From Pseudomonadota bacterium (GTDB taxonomy: Bacteria; Pseudomonadota; Gammaproteobacteria; Acidiferrobacterales; Acidiferrobacteraceae), in the NCBI GenBank assembly GCA_021816625.1, contig JAKAXM010000014.1, forward strand, positions 1 to 46,413: a stretch of 46,413 bases of DNA. The letters are read 5' to 3'. A program made the position numbers and the translations under genes. Under the pieces are notes generated by a model, which made no database searches, was not told the DNA's origin, and worked only from the letters and a program-made list of their open reading frames with translations. Every line of letters starts with the position of its first letter. Position 1 is the first letter of the stretch. Shown here in pieces: positions 37,959 through 42,412 of this stretch.

Positions 37959-38414
37959 GCCCTGAGCCATCAGCAGGCCGGCCATGAAGATCGCCACCGA
38001 CAGCAGACCGATGACAGCGCCTATCGCGCGGGCCGCGCCCTTCGCCCCCGTGCGCTCGGCGCGCGGTCCGAGCACCCAGTCGTGCCATACGGTAAGGATC
38101 AGTACCGCCACGATCATGACGGCCTTGACCCCAAGCGTGGTCCCGAAGGCGCTCACCCAAAATCGGGCGTGTCCGAACGTCTCGAAATGAACCCCCTGTA
38201 CCCACAAGAGCAAGGGGCCCGTGGCCACGAGCGTAACGAGGGCGGTATAGGCGAGCGGACGGAAGGCGCGCCCCAGGGCCGTCGCGATGCCGGCGGCCGG
38301 CGCGGCGCGTGCCGCGGGTACCACCGCAAACAAGAAAAACAGGACACCGCCCACCCAAGCGGCAGCCGCCAGCATATGCAGCGCGATCAGCACCAGAAAG
38401 AGGTCTTCACGCAT
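37953..38414 (-). CDS. CopD-like four-helix membrane protein
   Basis: A 153-residue integral membrane protein with about four hydrophobic segments (near 5-30, 50-75, 90-115 and 128-150). HMLAAAAWVGGVLFFLFAVV with a His in helix 1 and HARFWVSAFGTTLGVKAVMI are typical of the CopD superfamily, associated with copper resistance or heme binding. Function unproven. It is the third gene of an overlapping minus-strand set (thioredoxin-like, DUF488, this gene), overlapping DUF488 by 8 bases. Confidence 0.75.
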   Translation of the reverse strand: MREDLFLVLIALHMLAAAAWVGGVLFFLFAVVPAARAAPAAGIATALGRAFRPLAYTALVTLVATGPLLLWVQGVHFETFGHARFWVSAFGTTLGVKAVMIVAVLILTVWHDWVLGPRAERTGAKGAARAIGAVIGLLSVAIFMAGLLMAQGL

Positions 38415-38781
38415 TCAGACGCGCCAAAAGGTAATCGCGGAGCACGACCGCGTTATTATGGACGGCATCGCGCGCGGCGTACACGAGAACGATGGGGCCC
38501 GCCCGGGCCGCAGCCAGTAAGGGGTCGGTATGTTCGGGATGGGCATGGAGTTGGGCTAGATAACGGCGGCGAAAATCCCCAAAACGTTCCGGCTCATGGC
38601 CAAACCAGCGCCGCAGGCCGGTGTCCGGGGCCGCCTCCTTGGCCCACCCGGCAAGGCCGGCCTGCGCCTTGCTCAGCCCGCGTGGCCAGATCCTGTCAAC
38701 GAGCCAGCACGGCCGATCCGGATCGGCCGGTGCCTCATAAACCCTCTGGATCGCGATCCGCTCGCGCCGGCTGCCGCTCAC
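38407..38781 (-). CDS. DUF488 family protein (YeaO-like)
   Basis: A 124-residue cytoplasmic protein. VYEAPADPDRPCWLVDRIWPRGLSK, LRRWFGHEPERFGDFRRRYL and VLVYAARDAVHNNAVVLRDY are the signature of the DUF488/YeaO family, whose function is unknown; some members were proposed to act on nucleic acids or heavy-metal stress, without proof. The GTG start overlaps the thioredoxin-like stop by 4 bases (GTGA). YeaO proteins usually show WVDRLWPRG, close to the present LVDRIWPRG. Confidence 0.88.
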   Translation of the reverse strand: MSGSRRERIAIQRVYEAPADPDRPCWLVDRIWPRGLSKAQAGLAGWAKEAAPDTGLRRWFGHEPERFGDFRRRYLAQLHAHPEHTDPLLAAARAGPIVLVYAARDAVHNNAVVLRDYLLARLNA

Positions 38782-39026
38782 GCGGCCTGCTGCGCGATCT
38801 TTAGGGCATCACCCAAGGACTGCACGCCCACCGCCGTGAGCTTGCCATCCACGACCAGTGCCGGCACGGTGCGCACGCGCAACTTCGCGACCAGGGCACG
38901 GCCGGCGGGCTCGGCAATATCCAAGGCTTGATAATCAATGGACTCGCGACCGGCCACCTCACGCCAAACCTCCTCGGCCTGCGGGCACACCGGACACCAC
39001 TTCGACACGAGCAACCGTATCTCCAT
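38778..39026 (-). CDS. Small thioredoxin/glutaredoxin-like protein
   Basis: An 82-residue thioredoxin-fold protein with active site C11-P-V-C14 (VSKWCPVCPQAEEVW) and the cis-Pro loop TVPALVVDGKL. This is the minimal glutaredoxin-like size, with no signal peptide, so it acts in the cytoplasm. Start ATG at 39024-39026 with GGAGG upstream; an upstream in-frame extension is not supported. It is the first gene of a three-gene overlapping operon, divergent from the first hemerythrin gene, with an FNR/Dnr-type palindrome midway between the two starts. Confidence 0.88.
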   Translation of the reverse strand: MEIRLLVSKWCPVCPQAEEVWREVAGRESIDYQALDIAEPAGRALVAKLRVRTVPALVVDGKLTAVGVQSLGDALKIAQQAA

Positions 39027-39089
39027 CGTCCACCTCCACGACATCGAAAAATATAGTGACACGCTAACAAAGGGCCTTTCGCCGGCTCC

Positions 39090-39103
39090 TTGACGTCCAT
39101 CAA
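39090..39103. promoter_or_regulatory. FNR/Dnr-type operator upstream of the hemerythrin gene
   Basis: TTGACGTCCATCAA, one base from the consensus TTGAT-N4-ATCAA. A GATAAT -10 lies at 39128-39133, so transcription would start near 39140 and the box would be centred at about -43, the class-II activator position for FNR/Dnr proteins. The box lies 63 bases before the hemerythrin ATG and 63 bases before the divergent thioredoxin-like start, so it may serve both. Confidence 0.65.
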
Positions 39104-39166
39104 GAGTGGCGGCCCCGGGGTCGCCGTGATAATGATAGCGTCTTTGGAGAGGACCCAGGAGTTGCC

Positions 39167-39598
39167 ATGAATGACGCGCTCGTAGACGGCTTCACCCATC
39201 ACCACCGGACCCTGGATGAAGGTTTCGAGAAGGCCAAGAAATGGGCCCAGGACGGGGAACTCCGGCAGGCTATCCAGGCCTTGCGGGATTTTCGTGAGGC
39301 GATCGAACGGCATATGGGCGCTGAGGAGCAGCGGCTGTTCCCGGCCTACGAGTCCCGTCACGGTCAAGACAATCCGCTCACCGCCATCCTACGCAAGGGC
39401 CACCGTGATCTGCGCGGCTTCTTCGACGAGATCGAGGAAACCCTGGAAGCCGGCGATCAGGACGAGGCCACCTCGCTCATGGGGACGGTCGAACAGATAC
39501 TCCACCACCACGACGAGAAGGAAGAACAGGAGTTTTACCCCGCCGTCGCACCGCTCATAGAGGATGCTCCGGCAGTCCTCAGCGCGCTGGGCGGCTGA
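39167..39598 (+). CDS. Hemerythrin-domain protein
   Basis: A 143-residue four-helix protein with a complete diiron ligand pattern: H11-H12-H13 at the N terminus, H49 and E53 (ERHMGAEEQRLFP), H79 (ILRKGHRDL) and H113-H115 with E119 (ILHHHDEKEEQEFYP). Such proteins bind O2 or NO, or handle iron and nitrosative stress. The gene has an FNR/Dnr-type box upstream at activating distance. The 3' end overlaps the convergent second hemerythrin gene by 20 bases. Confidence 0.92.
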   Translation: MNDALVDGFTHHHRTLDEGFEKAKKWAQDGELRQAIQALRDFREAIERHMGAEEQRLFPAYESRHGQDNPLTAILRKGHRDLRGFFDEIEETLEAGDQDEATSLMGTVEQILHHHDEKEEQEFYPAVAPLIEDAPAVLSALGG

Positions 39599-40079
39599 GG
39601 CGGCGGCGCGCGGCCATGGCTTCCCCGAGCGCCGTGATCGCGGAGGTCGGCAACAAGGTCGCGGCGCGCGGCAAGATCTCGCGGTTTTCAGCCGCCAGGT
39701 GCGCCTGCATGAGCCCGACATAGGGCTCGATGGGGAGTTCCGTCGGCGCCGGCGCGAGCGCGGATAAGGCCTGCGCGAGCGGGGCGTAGGCCTCGGCAAG
39801 CACGCGGTGTTCGGCCATGAGGCGCGCCATGGCGGCGCGCACCCCTGCGTCCCCGTAACGCTCGAGGAGCGGCGCCAGATCGCGCTCCTCGTCCTCGTGA
39901 TGCCAGCGGCCCGCCTCCGCGAAATAGTCATAGACTCGTCGGGCCGCGACCTGGGCCTCACGGTCGCCCCCGTGGACCCGGACATGGGCGGCCAGCCGCA
40001 CGAGGGTCACACAATGGCCTGCAATACGCTCATGGCAGGCCGCGAGCAGGCCGAGCGGGTCTTCGAAGCTCGGTGCCAT
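39579..40079 (-). CDS. Second hemerythrin-domain protein
   Basis: A 166-residue helical protein starting MAPSFEDPLGLLAACHERIA. Candidate diiron ligands: CHERIAGHC, WHHEDEERDLAPLL, LMAEHRVLAEAY and MQAHLAAENREILP, fitting the hemerythrin HHE domain. The ATG at 40079 follows GAGAAAGG; a GTG ten codons upstream (40109) after GGGGGTGAG is an alternative start. It faces the first hemerythrin gene and lies downstream of the LbpA-like gene on the same strand, so it may share that gene's FNR/Dnr-controlled transcript. Confidence 0.85.
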   Translation of the reverse strand: MAPSFEDPLGLLAACHERIAGHCVTLVRLAAHVRVHGGDREAQVAARRVYDYFAEAGRWHHEDEERDLAPLLERYGDAGVRAAMARLMAEHRVLAEAYAPLAQALSALAPAPTELPIEPYVGLMQAHLAAENREILPRAATLLPTSAITALGEAMAARRRLSRPAR

Positions 40080-40136
40080 GGGCGCGCCTTTCTCACGGAT
40101 ATGCACCACTCACCCCCATGTGCCGACACCCCAGCC

Positions 40137-40586
40137 TCAGGGCTGTGCACACCGCATACATTGGACATCGTAACGGTCGAGCCAGACCCGCAAGGCCTCC
40201 ATCGCCTTCGGCCCGGTCGCCAGGTCGACGAAGGCCTGGTCGGGGACCAGCGGCCGCACCTTGGCGAGCCACGCGTCCGTATAGGGCCCGATATTGACGA
40301 GGTGGGGCGTCTCTAGAACCGCCGCATTGACCTCCTCGACCACCCCCTCGAAGGGGCAAGGCACGCCGCCCGCCCATTTGCCGCTCTCGAGCGTAGCCAC
40401 GTGCCGCCCCTTATTGAGATGCGTACCGACCTTCTTGATGCGAATCTTTTGCACCCGGCCGGCCATGGTCTGGGCGGCATCCGTGATACCCAGCACGACC
40501 AGCCCCCCTTCCTCGGGTCGCGCCCAGACATAATCCAGGTCATAAAACAGGTCGTCTGGTAGTTCGCAGCCACGGTACTCAGTCAT
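40137..40586 (-). CDS. Lipoate-binding GcvH-like protein (LbpA type) with a C-terminal CxxC
   Basis: A 149-residue protein with the GcvH hybrid-motif fold (VVLGITDAAQTMAGRVQKI) and lipoylation site K70 in ATLESGKWAGGVPCPFEG. The ESGKW(V/A)G sequence is typical of LbpA, the lipoate-binding protein of the sHdr sulfur-oxidation pathway, not of glycine-cleavage GcvH (ESVKAASD). The C-terminal extension ends in CMRC (C143, C146), which could be redox active or bind a metal. No glycine cleavage or hdr genes are in the window. An FNR/Dnr-type box lies 48 bases upstream, and a lipoate ligase is encoded 0.8 kb away. Confidence 0.82.
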   Translation of the reverse strand: MTEYRGCELPDDLFYDLDYVWARPEEGGLVVLGITDAAQTMAGRVQKIRIKKVGTHLNKGRHVATLESGKWAGGVPCPFEGVVEEVNAAVLETPHLVNIGPYTDAWLAKVRPLVPDQAFVDLATGPKAMEALRVWLDRYDVQCMRCAQP

Positions 40587-40633
40587 GCTCCATCCTCTCC
40601 GGCCAGTCTAGGATGCGGATCTCCGGCCCTACA

Positions 40634-40647
40634 TTGACCGTGGTCAA
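40634..40647. promoter_or_regulatory. FNR/Dnr-type operator upstream of the LbpA-like gene
   Basis: TTGACCGTGGTCAA, with perfectly complementary TTGAC/GTCAA arms. On the minus strand a TAGACT -10 lies at 40605-40610, so transcription would start near 40598 and the box would be centred at about -42, class-II spacing. The site overlaps the stop codon of the Crp/Fnr regulator gene. A GGAGAGGATGGAG ribosome binding region follows. Confidence 0.6.
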
Positions 40648-41339
40648 GCACGGCCGCCGCCGGCCGTGTCGCGCCATCGGCGCAACCCCTCTCGATCGGC
40701 GACATGGATATCGGTCCCGGCAACCGATATGAGGCCCCGATCGCGTAAGCTCGCCAACACGCGGGAAAAGGTCTCGGCCTTGACGCCAAGACGGGAGGCC
40801 ATGACGTTCTTGTGGACCGGGATGTGGACGTCGCCGGAGTTACCCTCGGGCGGACATTGCTCGAGCAGGTAGCTCGCGACCCGTTGTCCCGCGGTCTCGA
40901 GCGTCAAGGCCTGAACATCGTTGATCAACTGGTGAAGCCGCATACTCAGTCCCGCCAACATACGCAGGGCCATGCCGCTATTATCCTTGAGGATCCGTGT
41001 AAAGTCGCGCAAGGGGATCTCGACGAGCCGGGCATCGGAGACCGCCGCCGCCGACACGGGATAGCGGCCGCCCAGAAAGACGGCCGCCTCGGCAAAGGTC
41101 TGGCCGGGCACGATGATCTCAATCACCTTCTCGTCGCCATCCCGCGACAAGCGATAGAGGCGCATGGCCCCTGCGAGCAGGAAGTAAAAAGCCTCCGCCT
41201 TGTCGCCCTCGGCGAACAGGGCCTCATGACCCTTGAGCGTCCGGACCGTGGCGTGACTCAAGAGCCGTTCGAGCTCGTCTGGGTAGAGTCCGGAAAAAAG
41301 CGCGGCTGCCGCCACCCCCTTCACATCCTCATGCATCAT
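40644..41339 (-). CDS. Crp/Fnr family regulator, Dnr-type
   Basis: A 231-residue transcription factor: cyclic-nucleotide-binding-like sensor domain (about 15-125), long dimerisation helix (125-150) and a winged helix-turn-helix (about 150-220). The recognition helix has E189-x-x-S192-R193 (AETFSRVLASLRDRG), the ExxSR combination with which FNR reads TTGA half-sites. The N-terminal cysteines of FNR are missing (only C162 is present), so it is not an Fe-S oxygen sensor; Dnr-like NO sensing through heme is a candidate. It lies upstream of the LbpA-like gene and is divergent from lplA. Confidence 0.92.
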   Translation of the reverse strand: MMHEDVKGVAAAALFSGLYPDELERLLSHATVRTLKGHEALFAEGDKAEAFYFLLAGAMRLYRLSRDGDEKVIEIIVPGQTFAEAAVFLGGRYPVSAAAVSDARLVEIPLRDFTRILKDNSGMALRMLAGLSMRLHQLINDVQALTLETAGQRVASYLLEQCPPEGNSGDVHIPVHKNVMASRLGVKAETFSRVLASLRDRGLISVAGTDIHVADREGLRRWRDTAGGGRA

Positions 41340-41377: not shown

Positions 41378-42412
41378 ATGGACCTTAAGGGATCCCTCGT
41401 GCACTGTTTCACGCCGACAGACAACAGCGGCATCCTGCCGATCACCTACTTCCATGCCCTCGCGCGCCTGGGCGCCGAGGGGCTCGTGCTGATCGAGCCG
41501 GCCCAGCCCTTTGTGAGTCTAGGCCTCTTTGACGACACTGGCACCTGCCTCGACCTCGACTTTTGCCAGAGCCACGGACTGCCCGTCATGCGTCGGGAGA
41601 CCGGGGGCGGCATGGTGCTACTCGGCCCGGGGCAAGTCTTCTACACCCTCGTCATAAAGCGCGGCCATGGCCGTGTGCCCAGCAAGGTCGACGATGCCTA
41701 CCGCTATCTCTCGGCCGCCCCGATCGCCGTCTATCGCCAATTTGGGGTGCCTACGCGCCTGCGGCCCGTCAATGATATTGTCACGCAGGCCGGGCGTAAA
41801 ATCGCCGGGCAAGGTGCCGGGGACATCAACGGGCACTTCTGCTTCGTCGGCAGCATCCTCATAGACTTCGACACCGAACTCATGCATCGGATTGCCAAGG
41901 TCCCGGACCCGGCGCTACGCCCGCCCCTCAAAGAGGCCCTCGATGCCGGGATGACCTCCCTCTACCGGGAAACCGGGGTCCGGCCGAGCGGGGCGGCCAT
42001 AAAGGCGGCGCTCGCCGCGGCCTTTGCACCCCTCGTAGGAGAACTCTCGCCGCGCGCTACGCCCGCCTGCCTCACGGCGGCAGCTCGGCAGGTGGCGGAA
42101 GAATTGGCACACGTCGAGACGGTCATGCAGGAGGACACGCGCCCCCGCGCGCTTTTCAAGATCCGTGAAGGGCTCTACGCCCGGCAGCGCGATATACCCT
42201 ATCGGGGCCGGCGGCTTGCCGTCTCCCTCCTGATCCATGAGGGGCACGTGGAGCGCGTCCACGTGGCGGGCGATGGGCCGCTTGTCGACCTCTCGGCCTT
42301 GATCGGCGTCCGCTTCGACCGATCCGCCCTGCAGGCGGCCCTGGCCACCCGCCCGGACCCCGCGCTATCCGTGGATCAGGTGATTGCAGCCCTTATGGAT
42401 GGAGTCGACTAG
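41378..42412 (+). CDS. lplA: Lipoate-protein ligase A family protein
   Basis: Activates lipoate with ATP and attaches it to a lysine of an acceptor protein. The 344-residue protein has [20 protein letters not shown] (lipoate loop, RRxxGGG), [20 protein letters not shown] (with the lipoyl-AMP Lys) and a C-terminal accessory domain (about 260-344). Likely clients are the LbpA-like protein and the two lipoyl domains of the E2-E3 fusion. In sulfur oxidisers LbpA is served by specific ligases encoded beside it, which fits the position here. It is divergent from the Crp/Fnr gene (38-base gap) and its end overlaps purL by 4 bases. Confidence 0.88.

Follow-up and report, generated by a model that had tools for sequence, protein, structure and literature searches.

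Conserved FNR-like boxes and a DNR-like regulator in an LbpA-like and hemerythrin gene cluster of an Acidiferrobacteraceae bacterium

The DNR regulon of Pseudomonas and beta-proteobacteria includes nitric oxide (NO) reductase; in the part of Rodionov et al. 2005 (PMC1274295) available here, as the other papers cited below were available in part, DUF2249 is tied to the nor genes, nnrS is among the genes treated, the DNR motif is given as CTTGATnnnnATCAAG and the HcpR sites before norB and hcp of two cyanobacteria as TTGACnnnnGTCAA, and duplicated dnr genes beside hcp and cgb are reported for Acidithiobacillus ferrooxidans. A gene cluster comparable to this regulon was analysed in 46,413 nucleotides of a Pseudomonadota bacterium of the family Acidiferrobacteraceae (contig JAKAXM010000014.1 of assembly GCA_021816625.1), a stretch that is called the window in the following. 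The cluster contains a DNR-like regulator gene, two genes for hemerythrin-domain proteins (hhe1 and hhe2), a thioredoxin gene (trx) and the gene for an LbpA-like protein, labelled LbpA3 here and encoded at 40137..40586, together with two palindromic FNR-like boxes. It probably represents a Dnr-type nitrosative-stress regulon with NO as the signal, in which lbpA3-hhe2, trx with the adjoining DUF488 gene, hhe1 and norB would be subject to class II activation.

The cluster shares with the DNR regulon, as far as PMC1274295 describes it in that part, the regulator family, the absence of the FNR cysteines, boxes of the FNR kind flanked by C/G and, as a putative target elsewhere in the genome, an NO reductase gene; nnrS and DUF2249 are also in common. 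What sets it apart is a predicted lipoyl carrier together with a small thioredoxin and a pair of hemerythrins, and a frequent C at the fifth base of the half-site. LbpA3 resembles the LbpA proteins of sHdr systems, in the portion of PMC10332631 considered, in its GcvH-like family, its ESGKW lysine and the adjoining lipoate ligase gene, but it is encoded outside the sHdr-type locus and no lipS1/lipS2-like gene was found among its immediate neighbours. Hemerythrins are known under oxygen or NO control: Anr controls the hemerythrin Mhr in P. aeruginosa (PMC12403760) and a YtfE-like hemerythrin is induced by NO in Desulfovibrio desulfuricans (PMC5701242). The present cluster resembles these systems in having hemerythrin-type proteins, here under putative NO control, and differs from them in its lipoate protein, since none of the LbpA kind is seen in the parts of the two papers; the glycine-cleavage genes of D. 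desulfuricans, including that of the H protein, stand in a separate growth-conditions table and not in the NO table of PMC5701242.

Boxes, promoter geometry and the regulator

The exact pattern TTGAC-N4-RTCAA occurs only twice in the window. Box 1, TTGACGTCCATCAA (39090..39103), is located between the divergent genes trx (minus strand) and hhe1 (plus strand), and each side has a -10 hexamer at a class II-like distance; box 2, TTGACCGTGGTCAA (40634..40647), stands between the regulator gene, whose stop codon (40644-40646) it overlaps, and lbpA3. A preliminary description, made from the sequence alone, had reported both palindromes upstream of hhe1 and the lbpA-like gene, which is correct, and had omitted that box 1 also faces trx. 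When one mismatch is allowed, nine matches are counted over the two strands of the window versus 1.95 expected, a number reached in 0 of 100 shuffles.

A scan of the genome and a comparison with relatives, proposed in the same description as checks, were both carried out. TTGAY-N4-RTCAA is found at 19 sites in the window's genome (G000) versus 0 for the reversed pattern, and at 226 versus 6 (summed forward columns) in 14 genomes of the genus. At least four of the 19 sites lie inside long reading frames (contigs C28, C33, C10 and C50) and are taken as chance matches and not as operators; the set also includes sites on C24, C31, C47 and C52 with no client assigned, and clients of the genome-wide sites were read in four of the 14 genomes (G000, G001, G003 and G004). 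Orthologous loci were compared in the 14 genus genomes and in three more distant ones, leaving out L131-L141, which duplicate counted genomes. The strict form of the box precedes lbpA3 in 17/17 of these loci and stands between trx and hhe1 in 16/17. In the lbpA3 gap, the 14 genomes agree in 9 of the 14 box columns (TTGA and GTCAA) versus 5 of the 46 other columns, these five including letters of a -10-like TAGACT, and in the trx/hhe1 gap the invariant columns are 7/14 in the box versus 9/114 outside it. In G003 a TGA situated within box 2 is the normal stop of the regulator gene.

The match to TATAAT was scored at 44 positions downstream of the box in each orthologue set, and the best -10-like position corresponds to a spacer of 23 nucleotides for lbpA3 (n = 17), trx (n = 16), hhe1 (n = 16) and norB (n = 8). 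The observed maximum was reached in 1.1% (lbpA3), 2.3% (trx), 1.6% (hhe1) and 0.25% (norB) of 2000 column shuffles, which place the maximum at position 23 in 2 to 3%; as the sequences are related, these p-values overstate the significance. Assuming a -10 hexamer that starts at -12, the spacer of 23 puts the box centre near -42.5, a class II geometry. In the window, the hexamers are GATAAT for hhe1 (5/6 matches, spacer 24, box centre near -43.5), TAGACT for lbpA3 (4/6, spacer 23, near -42.5) and TAGCGT for trx (3/6, spacer 23, near -42.5), close to the centre at -42 to -43 noticed earlier. It appears that box 1 can function in either direction. The form TTGAC-N4-ATCAA is present in gene orientation in 0 of 68 boxes (norB 8, fnr 13, hemN 14, lbpA3 17 and trx 16) and in 8 of 16 when box 1 is read towards hhe1; because it occurs only in the latter reading, box 1 is oriented like an operator of trx, with hhe1 on its back.

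The regulator gene (40644..41339, minus strand; PF00027 and PF13545) lies between lbpA3 and lplA and has an orthologue in 14/14 genus genomes, each of which also encodes a second homologue. A profile built from 13 of the 14 orthologues (the G003 copy being omitted) matched DNR (3dkw) as the top solved structure with 156.7 bits, followed by 3h3z and 3fx3 (134.4 bits, named only cyclic nucleotide-binding protein), 4ev0 (79.6 bits) and CRP (75.4 bits), with FNR at no more than 53.1 bits and FixK2 at 47.3 bits. In the same 13 sequences, E189-T-F-S-R193 is invariant, no cysteine is found among the invariant or nearly invariant columns and the N-terminal iron-sulfur (Fe-S) cysteines of FNR are absent; the earlier assignment of a Dnr-type protein with the ExxSR helix and no Fe-S cysteines is thus upheld. 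Among more distant relatives, DNR-like pairs adjoin norE-/norC-like genes, named by eye, in L147 and nir genes in Azospirillum, consistent with a link to NO; no other gene of the cluster was found in the stretches examined around relatives below 40% identity (L145-L155), and the region read around a Thiodictyon relative (43.5%) shows no NO gene.

A link to NO is also suggested by norB, which was found in 8/14 genus genomes and is preceded in 8/8 of them by a symmetric TTGAC-N4-GTCAA box, 83-98 nucleotides before the matched start (two short fragments of G009 were not used). Two overlapping subclasses can be distinguished among the boxes compared. TTGAC half-sites account for 16/16 at norB, 25/34 at lbpA3 and 18/32 at trx/hhe1 versus 10/28 at hemN and 4/26 at fnr; spacer positions are G or C in 142/164 cases for the lbpA3, trx/hhe1 and norB boxes versus 32/108 for those of hemN and fnr, and C/G flanks occupy 76/82 versus 26/54 places. 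This comparison leaves out L077 for trx/hhe1, where one half-site is degenerate, and for fnr the G011 row (L056) and the paralogues L065 and L066, so that fnr is represented by 13/14 genomes; the counts are not independent, since the orthologues are kin. The boxes of norB, lbpA3 and trx/hhe1 therefore match the published DNR motif CTTGATnnnnATCAAG (PMC1274295, in part) in the flanks and not at the fifth base.

The LbpA3 cluster and its plasmid counterpart

The minus strand between 41339 and 39579 carries the regulator gene, then lbpA3 (40137..40586; PF01597) and, 3' of it in the same direction, hhe2 (39579..40109; PF01814; alternative ATG at 40082), with which hhe1 (39167..39598, plus strand; PF01814) is convergent. 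The trx gene (38778..39038, minus strand, ATG at 39038; PF13192), of the Thioredoxin_3 type with a CPVC motif, and the DUF488 gene 3' of it (38407..38781, minus strand; PF22752 and PF04343) point away from hhe1, and the lipoate-protein ligase gene lplA (41378..42412, plus strand; PF21948) is divergent from the regulator gene, in synteny in 14/14 genus genomes. The order from purL to the DUF488 gene is likewise preserved in 14/14, the latter gene keeping its position; in the three more distant loci, where the regulator is 58-59% identical, it is preserved from purL as far as trx.

Four proteins of the GcvH family exceed the cut-off in the genome: GcvH (contig C37), two LbpAs of the sHdr-type locus (contig C7) and LbpA3, whose identity is 42% and 40% with the C7 proteins and 38% with GcvH. 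Because of these identities and of its location outside the C7 locus, LbpA3 is regarded as a protein of the LbpA kind that is not part of the sHdr-type operon. The preliminary description had called it a sulfur-oxidation-type lipoate protein, which holds for the family; by sequence LbpA3 is a third paralogue, and the name denotes that family, the function being only putative. The ESGKW lysine motif and a C-terminal QCMRC are present in 17/17 LbpA3 orthologues, and QCMRC was not found in the two C7 LbpAs. Over 179 residues, the product of the neighbouring lplA shares 32% identity with the ligase encoded in the C7 locus.

A similar set is found on plasmid p1 of the distantly related acidophile A. 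ferrooxidans YNTRS-40, which carries, one after the other, genes for a globin, an FAD reductase, a thioredoxin, a hemerythrin, an LbpA-like protein, a DUF2249 protein and a hemerythrin, with, further along, a DNR-like regulator divergent from hcp, an FAD reductase and nnrS; DUF2249 is presumably COG4309. The identities to the window (tblastn) are 64% for LbpA3, 55% for trx, 43% for hhe1, 43% for hhe2 and 42% for the regulator. The plasmid LbpA also has ESGKW and QCMRC. Its identity is 64-69% with seven LbpA3s and 37-43% with the group formed by the C7 pair and GcvH, and a small unrooted tree places its branch between these two groups. In 21 kb of p1 there are four strict boxes, three before the globin, DUF2249 and hcp genes and one inside nnrS. 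Unlike the plasmid set, which is accompanied by globin and hcp, that of the window adjoins purL and lacks those neighbours.

Of the 1038 plasmid records with a relative of the regulator, three A. ferrooxidans plasmids rank first (42.4%), followed by Thiodictyon (43.5%, across a shorter region); in a set of 72,556 plasmid records (E up to 1e-5), trx was matched in three only, which are A. ferrooxidans plasmids that also carry LbpA3, and the best plasmid matches of LbpA3 and hhe1 are in the same three. Two lineages therefore retain the same odd gene set, once beside well-known NO-defence genes, and plasmids may have carried it between acidophiles. The NO module of p1 also has a DUF488 gene (L250:8854-9450), a possible counterpart of that in the window, and a heterodisulfide-reductase-like gene (L250:7365-8705).

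The proposed regulon and alternative explanations

From sequence and precedent we infer the following mechanism. The DNR-like regulator would bind CTTGAY-N4-RTCAAG boxes centred near -42.5 and act as a class II activator, raising the expression of lbpA3-hhe2 from box 2, that of the divergent trx(-DUF488) and hhe1 from the single box 1 that they share and, elsewhere in the genome, that of norB. DNR senses NO through bound heme, and the same signal is predicted here by that precedent. The hemerythrins and NorB would bind or remove NO, and Trx and LbpA3 would be a thiol/lipoyl carrier pair kept working in its presence. Of the two signals named in the preliminary description, NO or low oxygen, the former is favoured by the norB boxes and by the plasmid NO module; oxygen seems the less likely because a separate canonical FNR, which that description omitted, has boxes of a partly different subclass. 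Overall, the comparisons support the earlier interpretation.

The role of LbpA3 within such a regulon is open to a more tentative suggestion: it might be a lipoyl carrier dedicated to nitrosative stress and made only with NO, which together with Trx and by its own C-terminal CxxC could provide a dithiol relay for reducing S-nitrosothiols or for replacing a sulfur-oxidation LbpA damaged by NO. In the habitat of acidophiles nitrite readily yields NO, and the cluster would tie NO defence to a lipoyl carrier of a sulfur-oxidation family in acid-loving sulfur and iron oxidisers. It would be a small, testable regulon, suggesting what a lipoate protein that belongs neither to central metabolism nor to sHdr might be for. 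To our knowledge, no lipoate protein has so far been placed in a Dnr regulon. No link of a lipoate or glycine-cleavage protein to hemerythrins, NO or FNR was found in searches of the open-licence literature or in the available parts of PMC9774590, PMC10086054 and PMC5701242.

Besides the overstated significance of the shuffle tests, several points weigh against a Dnr-type NO regulon. As regards the regulator, its best NCBIfam model is FtrB, below the cut-off, and the gap between lplA and the regulator gene, which is that of its own promoter, has no strict box in the 17 loci. As regards the boxes, the fifth base of the half-site, often C here, is T in the published DNR consensus (PMC1274295, in part); the two subclasses overlap; the TAGCGT hexamer of trx in the window is weak; and box 1 is degenerate in one genome, G011 (L077), where one half-site is kept. 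Moreover, norB was not found in 6/14 genus genomes, some of them incomplete, and both boxes are kept there. On plasmid p1, no box stands directly before lbpA, which would use the globin box four genes upstream, the box spacers are A/T-richer than those of the window, and the -10 spacing was scored in the four orthologue sets given above.

A further group of such points concerns the canonical FNR encoded on contig C26, which, with the window regulator, is one of the two proteins of the genome above the HTH_Crp_2 cut-off. The boxes could be read mainly by this protein in a low-oxygen response, with the Dnr-like gene acting elsewhere or in parallel and the hemerythrins storing or delivering oxygen. 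The C26 protein carries CSSCSLREIC and the same E-xx-SR helix as the window regulator, and the FNR cysteine stretch was read in 13/14 genus genomes (the G011 homologue, L056, has neither the cysteines nor a box, and one further G011 match is unread); the presumed FNR targets hemN, nrdD, a ubiT/UbiD-type gene (named by eye) and fnr itself carry TTGAY-N4-RTCAA, a similar motif, and the control of the P. aeruginosa hemerythrin by Anr (PMC12403760, in part) would fit as well. However, the boxes of lbpA3, trx/hhe1 and norB differ from those of fnr and hemN in spacer G+C and in C/G flanks, the hexamer at spacer 23 is not shared by the hemN promoters (n = 14), and the plasmid set is accompanied by a Dnr-like gene, hcp and nnrS. 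Control mainly by FNR is accordingly held to be rather unlikely, and it is kept as an alternative because cross-talk is likely enough.

It is less probable still that the Dnr-shaped regulator responds to something else, for instance to sulfane sulfur or the redox state, and that the cluster belongs to sulfur oxidation. The family of LbpA3, the adjoining lipoate ligase and Trx genes and the presence in the organism of an sHdr-type locus with two LbpAs are in line with this possibility, as are the sulfur regulators of Hyphomicrobium, which also affect denitrification genes (PMC12423496, in part); however, the norB boxes in 8/8 genomes and the NO genes that accompany the set on the plasmid point elsewhere, the sHdr-type operon has no convincing box and the palindrome before dsrE2 is hairpin-like, as described below. 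Finally, it is very improbable that box 2, instead of being an operator, forms a hairpin in the RNA of two genes transcribed together: it overlaps the regulator stop codon and base pairing in the transcript is conceivable, such pairing being kept in the lbpA3 orientation by G at position 10 in 17/17 loci and C or T at position 5, but the spacer is of 4 nucleotides in 17/17, the -10-like hexamer stands at a fixed distance, the same motif and spacing recur before norB and between the divergent trx and hhe1, and the hairpin-like case, that of dsrE2, behaves differently.

Further palindromes at dsrE2, FNR and DsrC loci

The palindrome of dsrE2 (L019:14892, contig C7 of G000) is perfect and lies 15 nucleotides before this gene, at the head of the sHdr-type operon, in a short gap after a tusA-like gene (named by eye). 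It was considered as a direct operator of sulfur oxidation and rejected, since it varies like a hairpin, and it is not counted among the boxes. In the 17 readable of 18 family copies, TTGA-N6-TCAA is strict in 12; of the variants, one has both arms changed (TTGGC...GCCAA), one a loop of 3 nucleotides and one a single changed arm, and two are decayed, one of these being a second G009 copy. A stable stem is predicted in two of three versions (z -4.1 and -3.7), the third being unremarkable (z -0.9), and the palindrome is likely an intercistronic hairpin.

On contig C26 of G000, an oxygen-independent biosynthesis cluster (L016:7711-17563), identified by eye, includes HemN, UbiT-/UbiD-like proteins, a U32 pair and a class III ribonucleotide reductase, with FNR-like boxes at four places, and is found also in the relatives read. 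Inside it, a protein of 555 residues (L016:12462-14126) has a lipoate-ligase-like part, 30% identical to the C7 ligase, and a C-terminal part that we take to be DUF116-like. On the same contig, hemerythrin and nnrS genes (L017:1104-2941) run divergently to fnr, and a TTGAT-N4-ATCAA box lies in the gap. The boxes of bacteriohemerythrin genes (C5; L113) have an FNR-like appearance and form no part of the evidence for a Dnr-type regulon. A box is also present near a DsrC-family gene in 4/4 genomes examined (L018:8538, L094:1499, L101:1538 and L125:1554), its client being either the DsrC gene or a divergent one.

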